Source of the DNA: an uncultured Paracoccaceae bacterium
GTDB taxonomy: Bacteria; Pseudomonadota; Alphaproteobacteria; Rhizobiales; Rhizobiaceae
Length of the DNA: 64,000 nt
Assembly: GCA_937873685.1 (NCBI GenBank)
Contig: CALMYO010000088.1
Span: 1 to 64,000, forward strand
Reading direction: 5' to 3'
Numbering within the stretch: the stretch's first letter is position 1; each line of letters begins with the position of its first letter. The notes below the pieces were generated by a model, which saw nothing but the letters and a program-made list of their open reading frames with translations, was not told the origin of the DNA and did no database searches. Of the stretch, positions 5,097-8,307 are shown piece after piece. Position numbers and translations under genes: made by a program.

Positions 5097-5125
5097 TTGC
5101 CGTTTCGTCCAGAGATTGCTATGGA
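5097..5125 (+). promoter_or_regulatory. putative promoter of the tracrRNA-like gene
   Basis: TTGCCG (5097-5102) and TATGGA (5120-5125) are separated by exactly 17 bp, and the second box is preceded by TGC, as in an extended -10. Transcription would begin near 5132, precisely where a 35-nt anti-repeat would have to start. The box lies between the cas9 start codon (5064) and the RNA, so divergent promoters would overlap. The -10 match is only partial. Confidence 0.4.
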
Positions 5126-5131
5126 ACACGG

Positions 5132-5212
5132 CGTTCCACCAGCGGAACACTGCCGCCCTCCGCCGACAAGGCTGAAGAGCCGCAACGCGAGGCGGGCTCC
5201 GGTCCGCCTCGC
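5132..5212 (+). ncRNA. tracrRNA-like RNA divergent from cas9
   Basis: The segment has the order of parts expected of a type II-C trans-activating CRISPR RNA. Bases 5132-5166 are a putative anti-repeat of 35 nt. Bases 5165-5181 form a nexus: GAC-AAGGC, then a small hairpin GGCT-GAAG-AGCC. The linker GCCGCAACGC follows (5179-5188), the same ten bases found at this place in the Neisseria meningitidis tracrRNA as I recall it. A hairpin with 11 paired bases and a UCCG loop ends it (5187-5212, GCGAGGCGG pairing with CCGCCTCGC). No T run follows, so termination efficiency is uncertain; a weaker GCCCT/AGGGC hairpin comes next at 5217-5239. The anti-repeat contains an internal GTTCC/GGAAC inverted repeat. 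No matching CRISPR repeat was found in the window. The call rests on structure, position beside cas9 and the nexus sequence; expression is unproven. Confidence 0.75.
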
Positions 5213-5244
5213 ACACGCCCTACAGTCTGTCTACAGGGCCTAGA

Positions 5245-5319
5245 GCGTTGTTCGATCAAATTGAATCGTTTGGACGCCGGGATCTTGTGTCCAAACAATT
5301 CAATTTGACCGAACGACGC
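5245..5319. repeat. imperfect 31-bp inverted repeat between the cas9 locus and pobA
   Basis: Arms 5245-5275 and 5289-5319 pair over 31 bp with three departures from perfect pairing (one of them G-T), around a 13-base loop. CTAG motifs lie just outside both arms (5240-5243 and 5321-5324), and the right side reaches the pobA stop codon. The core is much more AT-rich than its surroundings (TCAAATTGAAT). It resembles the dispersed intergenic palindromes common in Rhizobiales genomes, which is an inference without a search. As RNA it would fold into a strong hairpin and could end pobA transcription. It also marks the outer edge of the cas9/tracrRNA locus. Confidence 0.8.
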
Positions 5320-5320
5320 C

Positions 5321-6520
<1,200 letters not shown>

Positions 6521-6577: not shown

Positions 6578-6603
6578 CGTATCGTTTGGATCACCGGGCA
6601 AAC

Positions 6604-8307
6604 CTACTCGCCGCCGCCCTGCTTCTTCAGCGCGGCGCCGAGGATGTCGCCGAGCGAAGCGCCGGAATCCGACGAACCGAACTGCGCCACCGCTTCCTTC
6701 TCCTCGGCGATTTCCAGCGCCTTGATCGAAAGTTGGACCTTGCGGTCCTTCTTGGAGAAGTTGATGACTCGCGCATCGACCTTCTGGCCGACGGCGAAGC
6801 GCTCGGGACGCTGCTCGTCGCGGTCGCGCGACAGGTCGGAACGACGGATGAAGCTCGTCAGGTCGTGATCGACCAGTTTCACCTCGATGCCGCCGTCGTT
6901 GATCGCGGTGACTTCCGCCGTGACGACGGCGTTCTTGCGCAGTTCGCCGGACGCCGCCGCCTCGCTGACGCGGTCGCGGCCGAGCTGCTTGACGCCGAGC
7001 GAGATGCGCTCCTTCTCCACATCGACATCGAGCACCACGGCGCGAACCATGTCGCCCTTGTTGTACTCCTCGATGACCTGTTCGCCCGGACGGTTCCAGT
7101 CGAGGTCGGAGAGGTGGACCATGCCGTCGACATCGCCGTCGAGGCCGATGAACAGACCGAACTCGGTCTTGTTCTTGACCTCGCCCTCGACTTCCGAACC
7201 CACAGGATGGTTCTGCGAGAAGCTCTGCCACGGGTTGTCGAGCGTCTGCTTGAGGCCAAGCGAGATGCGGCGCTTCACCGGATCGACCTCGAGCACCACC
7301 ACGTCGACTTCCTGGCTGGTAGACAGGATCTTGCCGGGGTGGACATTCTTCTTCGTCCAGCTCATTTCCGAGACGTGGATCAGCCCCTCGATGCCCGGTT
7401 CGATCTCGACGAACGCGCCGTAGTCCGTGATGTTGGTGACGCGACCGGTAATCTTCTTGCCGATCGGATACTTGGCGCCGATGCCCTCCCAGGGGTCGGA
7501 CTCCAGCTGCTTCATGCCAAGGCTGATGCGGTGGGTTTCCTGGTTGATGCGGATGATCTGCACCTTGACCGTCTGGCCGATGTTGAGGATCTCGGTTGGA
7601 TGGTTGACGCGCCGCCACGCCATGTCGGTGACATGCAGCAGGCCGTCGATGCCGCCGAGATCGACGAAAGCGCCGTAGTCGGTGATGTTCTTGACGACGC
7701 CGTCAACCACCTGGCCTTCCTCGAGGTTCTGCACGATCTCCGAACGCTGTTCGGCGCGGCTTTCCTCAAGCACGGTGCGGCGCGAGACGACGATGTTGCC
7801 GCGGCGCTTGTCCATCTTCAGGATTTCAAACGGCTGCGGGATGTTCATCAACGGCGAGACGTCGCGGATCGGGCGGATGTCGACCTGGCTGCGCGGCAGG
7901 AAAGCCACGGCGCCGTCGAGGTCGACGGTGAAGCCACCCTTGACCTGGTTGAAGATGACGCCTTCGACGCGCTCGCCCTTGCCGAATTTTTCTTCCAGCT
8001 TGACCCAGCTTTCCTCGCGGCGCGCCTTGTCGCGCGAGAGCACGGCTTCGCCAAGCGCATTTTCCACGCGCTCGACATACACCTCGACAGTGTCGCCGAC
8101 CTTCAGCACGGCATCCTTGCCCTTGGCGCCGAATTCCTTCAGCGGTACGCGGCCTTCGACCTTGAGGCCGACATCGATGATCGCCATGTCCTTTTCGATG
8201 GCGACGACCGTGCCCTTCACGACGCCGCCTTCGTAGGATTCCTGGGCATGGAAGGATTCTTCCAGCAGGGCTGCGAAATCGGCGGTGGGGGGATTGTATG
8301 GTGACAG
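6604..8307 (-). CDS. rpsA: 30S ribosomal protein S1
   Basis: The largest ribosomal protein, which binds mRNA and helps bring it to the 30S subunit. Six S1 (OB-fold) repeats are visible, for example GFTVDLDGAVAFLPRSQVD, YGAFVDLGGIDGLLHVTDM and YGAFVEIEPGIEGLIHVSEM. The C-terminus FGSSDSGASLGDILGAAL is the typical rhizobial end. The conserved rhizobial start region (FAALLEESF) begins at residue 11 here. A perfect Shine-Dalgarno AAGGAGG lies at 8318-8312, but no ATG, GTG or TTG follows it in frame before the conserved region. The only plausible initiator at the right distance is CTG (8307-8305), giving 567 residues, the normal family length. The frame is open further upstream, but those residues are not S1-like. 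cmk lies upstream on the same strand, the usual cmk-rpsA order. Confidence 0.95.
   Translation of the reverse strand: MSPYNPPTADFAALLEESFHAQESYEGGVVKGTVVAIEKDMAIIDVGLKVEGRVPLKEFGAKGKDAVLKVGDTVEVYVERVENALGEAVLSRDKARREESWVKLEEKFGKGERVEGVIFNQVKGGFTVDLDGAVAFLPRSQVDIRPIRDVSPLMNIPQPFEILKMDKRRGNIVVSRRTVLEESRAEQRSEIVQNLEEGQVVDGVVKNITDYGAFVDLGGIDGLLHVTDMAWRRVNHPTEILNIGQTVKVQIIRINQETHRISLGMKQLESDPWEGIGAKYPIGKKITGRVTNITDYGAFVEIEPGIEGLIHVSEMSWTKKNVHPGKILSTSQEVDVVVLEVDPVKRRISLGLKQTLDNPWQSFSQNHPVGSEVEGEVKNKTEFGLFIGLDGDVDGMVHLSDLDWNRPGEQVIEEYNKGDMVRAVVLDVDVEKERISLGVKQLGRDRVSEAAASGELRKNAVVTAEVTAINDGGIEVKLVDHDLTSFIRRSDLSRDRDEQRPERFAVGQKVDARVINFSKKDRKVQLSIKALEIAEEKEAVAQFGSSDSGASLGDILGAALKKQGGGE

Follow-up and report, generated by a model that had tools for sequence, protein, structure and literature searches.

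How does a Cas9 whose gene lies beside a tracrRNA obtain its guides when no cas1, cas2 or CRISPR array is found in the 64-kb window, that is, in the whole stretch of DNA analysed here? The genome of origin (G000) is a draft of 4.13 Mb in 298 contigs, rated 92% complete, and its GTDB family is that of Zhengella mangrovi, which we take to be Rhizobiaceae. An earlier note on this DNA had pointed to the RNA upstream of cas9 and to the repeat that it might predict, and we follow up both here.

Results

The locus and its Cas9

The cas9 gene and the tracrRNA are divergent and adjoining (Table 1). On one side cas9 is neighboured by an L,D-transpeptidase gene and on the other by genes for an FAD-dependent hydroxylase and ribosomal protein S1, and these flanking genes look like chromosomal housekeeping genes. 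The sole cas1 of G000 lies on contig C190 with another Cas9, in a second, canonical II-C system (L005, G000:C190:1-5442) that comprises cas9 (1105 aa), cas1 and cas2 together with its own tracrRNA (minus strand, near 529-611) and an array end, which lies at the edge of the contig. Downstream of the window tracrRNA, where the convergent hydroxylase gene ends, there is also a 36-nt inverted repeat (5240-5324, 89% complementary, 13-nt gap), of which no further copy was found within the window; it may serve as a terminator for both transcripts or represent a palindromic repeat element.

Table 1. Features of the Cas9-tracrRNA locus (positions in the window)
Feature	Position	Strand	Basis
Orphan Cas9-like gene, 979 aa	2125..5064	-	NCBIfam and Pfam profiles, catalytic residues
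Possible promoter: TTGCCG (5097-5102), 16 nt, CTATGG (5119-5124)	5097..5124	+	By eye, analogy
tracrRNA (anti-repeat, nexus, 3' hairpin), ends inferred	5131..5212 (about)	+	Covariance models, canonical relatives, stem covariation
Anti-repeat; reverse complement is the predicted lost repeat	5131..5167	+	Alignment with G087 anti-repeat
Small hairpin GTTCC-ACCAGC-GGAAC within the anti-repeat	5133..5148	+	Folding, G087 alignment
Nexus AA-GGCT-GAAG-AGCC	5168..5181	+	Pairing comparison of eight RNAs
3' hairpin GCGAGGCGGGC-TCCG-GTCCGCCTCGC	5187..5212	+	Comparison with canonical relatives; their T-run absent here

Over its whole length the window protein scores 97.2 bits against NCBIfam cas_Csn1, just below the cut-off of 100, and it scores 44.5 bits against Pfam HNH_4. 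The RuvC and HNH catalytic residues are present (D8, E478, H550, N573, H665, D668). Judged from its sequence, the window Cas9 is type II-C-like. A type II-D (Cas9d) identity was rejected at 80.5 bits against a profile cut-off of 375, as was an IscB/OMEGA identity at 30.2 bits against 175. AlphaFold models were poor, with a mean pLDDT of 58 and pTM of 0.27 for the window Cas9, and 62 and 0.36 for that of Zhengella; Foldseek with the Zhengella model returned Cas9 structures (best E 8e-22) at low TM-scores, which supports the assignment at the level of the fold only.

The RNA beside cas9 is very probably a tracrRNA

We used a covariance model (R1) of eight tracrRNAs from other Cas9 loci, six of which were checked for an array and none of which is among the array-less (orphan) loci described below. 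Its best match in the 64 kb is at 5156-5211 on the plus strand, with 22.4 bits and an E-value of 7e-4, which is rough since the model was short-calibrated; the next match reaches 10.9 bits. The first three pairs of the nexus form in all eight RNAs compared, the third being C-G, A-U or U-A, and the stems of the tracrRNA stay paired despite changes on both sides. In three canonical Hyphomicrobiales type II-C systems (G200, G087 and G633), whose Cas9s are homologous to that of the window, the tracrRNA lies in the same divergent place upstream of cas9 and has the same parts: an anti-repeat of 35-37 nt ending ...CTCTCCG(T/A)TAAC, an AAGG nexus and, at the 3' end, a hairpin whose loop is GCTCCGGT. 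These systems differ from the window in that cas1 and cas2 are present, the 36-nt repeats of an array match the anti-repeat, and T is more frequent after the hairpin. Because of the R1 match, the nexus and 3' hairpin common to the canonical relatives, and the similarity of the whole anti-repeat to that of G087, we are highly confident that the RNA at about 5131-5212 is a genuine tracrRNA, as the earlier note had supposed, and much surer of this identity than of any mechanism.

A gathering-threshold search of the window with Rfam gave zero matches, and a sigma-70 scan found no promoter site; nor was a terminator-like site found. In the canonical relatives the tracrRNA promoter lies directly before the anti-repeat. 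By weak analogy with them, 5097-5124 is a plausible, putative promoter for the window tracrRNA, with a predicted start near 5131. T after the 3' hairpin is rarer in the orphan RNAs (0-4 in 10) than in canonical ones (4-8 in 10). A second covariance model (R2) was built with the orphan RNAs included and so necessarily scores high at their four loci (59-69 bits); in the remaining sequence of 394 genomes its matches reach 39.8 bits at most. With scores elsewhere this low, there is one such RNA per genome, beside Cas9; blastn found no second copy in G000. The R2 matches below 40 bits in other genomes were set aside, as they resemble ordinary terminators or canonical tracrRNAs.

The anti-repeat predicts a lost repeat

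The segment 5131-5167 reads GCGTTCCACCAGCGGAACACTGCCGCCCTCCGCCGAC, and its reverse complement is GTCGGCGGAGGGCGGCAGTGTTCCGCTGGTGGAACGC. The earlier note had divided the predicted repeat into two sequence blocks; both are present, and they overlap by one G (...CAGTGTTCC...), so that one base had been counted twice. The 37-nt anti-repeat aligns end to end with that of G087 with a score of 30, both having GTTC(C/T)...GGAAC; none of 1000 shuffles aligned as well, and 7 of 1000 did so when only the 5' 25 nt were shuffled. G087 has an 18-repeat array, and the sequence of its repeat is known. The place, length and sequence pattern of 5131-5167 are those of a full anti-repeat, which predicts a repeat of 36-37 nt, and the idea that this RNA foretells a missing repeat holds up, since the alignment with G087 runs from end to end and the repeat core occurs in G000 only at the tracrRNA.

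The words GTTCC (5133-5137) and GGAAC (5144-5148), and a further GGAAC at 5123-5127, are real and can be read directly. What had been drawn from them fares less well. Self-complementarity had been thought unusual for a repeat, but this does not hold: the actual array repeat of G087 ends GTTCCTTGCTAGAAC. The hairpin 5133-5148 alone has -4.9 kcal/mol, and its counterpart in the anti-repeat of G087 is GTTCT...GGAAC. Self-pairing probability in the window anti-repeat is 0.59 against 0.38-0.55 in four canonical tracrRNAs, a small difference from few comparisons. With the palindrome common to array-bearing G087 and self-pairing this close, the proposal of a self-contained regulatory guide is not supported. 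The upstream GGAAC, proposed as a folding partner, is probably not transcribed, because it lies at the -10 position of the weak candidate promoter.

No fitting array found in the draft genome

The 14-nt core of the predicted repeat has 1 exact occurrence in G000, at the tracrRNA itself. With one mismatch there are 91 matches against 53 for a reversed control pattern; we did not take these as array copies, since they are mostly consistent with a GC-rich genome. No array with a fitting repeat was found in G000, a draft in whose unassembled part one could sit, and the array that would have contradicted the prediction of the earlier note did not appear. The C190 repeat was rejected as a partner of the window anti-repeat: their duplex has -27.0 kcal/mol, near chance, as 38 of 500 shuffles are as good (shuffle mean -22), whereas the C190 repeat and the tracrRNA of its own system pair at -44, and cognate duplexes in general range from -44 to -67 kcal/mol.

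Array-less relatives form one clade

Relatives were sought by protein and profile searches of 397 genomes of the order and 394 of the family, with one scan of named genomes, and were searched for the predicted repeat, for arrays near the locus and for cas1. Three further orphan loci came to light, in Zhengella mangrovi X9-2-2 (NZ_PDVP01000010.1), Notoacmeibacter sp. MAG_40 and the MAG Phyllobacteriaceae SP17, with no cas1-cas2 or array within the 14-15 kb examined at each. Among the other Cas9 relatives at the loci inspected, all have cas1 beside cas9 and most have an array, some contigs being cut off before an array could be seen. The Zhengella genome, rated 100% complete, has no cas1, and the cas1 of Notoacmeibacter is type I-C. 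In Zhengella and SP17 the corresponding repeat core, extended by adjacent bases, is confined to the locus; Notoacmeibacter has it there and in one other place. A degenerate pattern gave four more exact matches in the Notoacmeibacter genome, one being its own 14-mer (G321:C135); as they lack array structure, they were not accepted as an array and are taken as chance. This second exact 14-mer (L131, G321:C135:6474-6487, minus strand) lies near a possible gene start; it is probably chance, yet a candidate non-array partner.

The three relatives' Cas9s are of about 720-750 aa (Zhengella 724 aa, Notoacmeibacter 751 aa). Between the REC block and RuvC-II, canonical Azospirillum-type Cas9s have 292-296 aa, the window protein has 254 and the small Cas9s have 51-55; the distance from RuvC-III to the PAM-domain block is shortened in the orphan clade from 192 to 147-154 aa. 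Type II-D Cas9d (PMC9755519, PMC11706934), at 747 aa, is equally small; unlike it, the relatives of the window Cas9 belong to a II-C-like clade and owe their small size to the loss of REC sequence. The four orphan Cas9s form one clade (support 100/99), in which the window Cas9 sits on a long branch (2.2). Its position may be affected by long-branch attraction, against which the shared motifs, few as they are, speak: all four have lost W in SIGW and the xRELK-like segment after the RuvC-II glutamate, and have GG in the HNH loop.

The nuclease residues are kept across the four proteins where readable. The SP17 Cas9 (G414:C30, L057 about 7240-7290) is split by a frameshift in HNH, which is probably recent or an assembly error because identity and dN/dS are similar on both sides. 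Between Zhengella and SP17, dN/dS is about 0.3-0.4 (0.29-0.37) by crude counts, which, at the level of sequence, shows purifying selection acting between these Cas9s.

Two of these loci, L056 and L057, have the same placement: an mmsA-like dehydrogenase gene, a LysR-type regulator, the tracrRNA and cas9, and a photolyase-related gene (DPRP). The small-Cas9 loci also carry a palindromic stretch between tracrRNA and cas9 (L055 about 6590-6625, L056 about 7430-7490, L057 about 6150-6200), such as ATGGTGCGATCGCG...CGCGATCGCACCAT or AATGGCG...CGCCATT, which is absent from the window and is perhaps an operator.

Discussion

From these results, we propose an origin and a mode of action for the Cas9-tracrRNA pair of the window. 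The pair would descend from a type II-C-like CRISPR-Cas that lost its array together with cas1-cas2, and would be one of the four found members of an array-less clade. Cas9 would still bind and use the tracrRNA, which would make up a dual guide together with a separate, non-array RNA that pairs with the anti-repeat, e.g., a cellular transcript. This dual-guide step, drawn by analogy, is our best guess, favoured because the full anti-repeat and the likely start near 5131 are as in the canonical relatives. For one Cas9, noncanonical crRNAs that derive from cellular transcripts are described (PMC8224270); like our proposal, they draw on a guide source without an array, but the Cas9 in question has an ordinary system, unlike the array-less pair of the window. 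Taken whole, this explanation, with a genuine tracrRNA anti-repeat, a stand-alone Cas9, a lost array and a dual guide, strikes us as evenly balanced between right and wrong. We found no prior report of this particular lineage in the part of the literature that was covered.

The main rival is that the pair is a relic, slowly decaying without function after the loss of the array and adaptation genes. It is in keeping with the missing array, the lack of a T-run after the 3' hairpin, the shrunken REC lobe of the relatives, the long branches and the HNH frameshift in SP17. However, three of the four reading frames are open at 35-40% mutual identity with catalytic residues kept, the dN/dS of about 0.3-0.4 extends to both sides of that frameshift, and the RNA is retained beside Cas9 in every member, so we think decay rather unlikely. 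The guides might also be crRNAs supplied in trans, either by the second II-C array of G000 itself, on C190, or by one in sequence that is missing from the assembly. G000 does carry a further II-C operon that includes cas1, cas2 and the end of an array, but the near-chance duplex with the C190 repeat counts against this source, as does Zhengella, which keeps the pair without cas1 in a genome rated complete; such supply seems improbable.

It is distinctly improbable, in our judgement, that the RNA is a natural single guide, folding on itself in place of a crRNA and carrying its own guide as does tracr-L of Streptococcus pyogenes (PMC11417352). There too a tracrRNA lies beside cas9, and a regulatory use is conceivable here; tracr-L, however, belongs to a II-A system with an array, whereas the search here yielded no 5' guide that has a target close to the cas9 promoter. 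Hairpins can form inside the anti-repeat, and three of the four orphan RNAs could form a short CGGA...TCCG hairpin immediately ahead of the nexus; yet self-pairing of the anti-repeat is near that of canonical tracrRNAs, 5' segments match the surrounding 12 kb (6 kb each side) no better than random stretches do, and the sequence 5' of the anti-repeat is unconserved between members. Array-less II-C2 Cas9s of phages have been proposed to act as anti-CRISPRs (PMC10910872, PMC12669027), and the window Cas9 might similarly be a decoy that sequesters crRNAs, having a tracrRNA without an array, as in phage II-C2 (PMC10910872), in a genome that also has a II-C system. Phage II-C2 Cas9, however, has an inactivated RuvC, is encoded in phage genomes with an SNF2 helicase and has an anti-repeat that matches the host repeat, whereas the window Cas9 keeps D8, E478, H665 and D668, lies among genes resembling chromosomal housekeeping genes and has an anti-repeat that mismatches the host C190 repeat. 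We regard a decoy as very improbable indeed.

Returning to the dual-guide explanation, the absent T-run and the reduced REC lobe point to changes in guide recognition and in the RNA ends after the loss of the array. It seems that an immune enzyme has been retained although its memory is gone. More tentatively, and as something we would sooner doubt than assert, it could be a domesticated, array-free pair held in several related genera, which has shed most of the REC lobe in some members, takes its guides from non-array cellular RNAs and plays a role other than adaptive immunity. The array normally supplies the guides of Cas9, and the array-less clade offers a natural test of Cas9 outside immunity, with one member that has no cas1 at all; it also tests how small a II-C-like Cas9 can become. 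The question is made testable by the predicted repeat, by there being a single RNA per genome and by a cultured member, Zhengella mangrovi.
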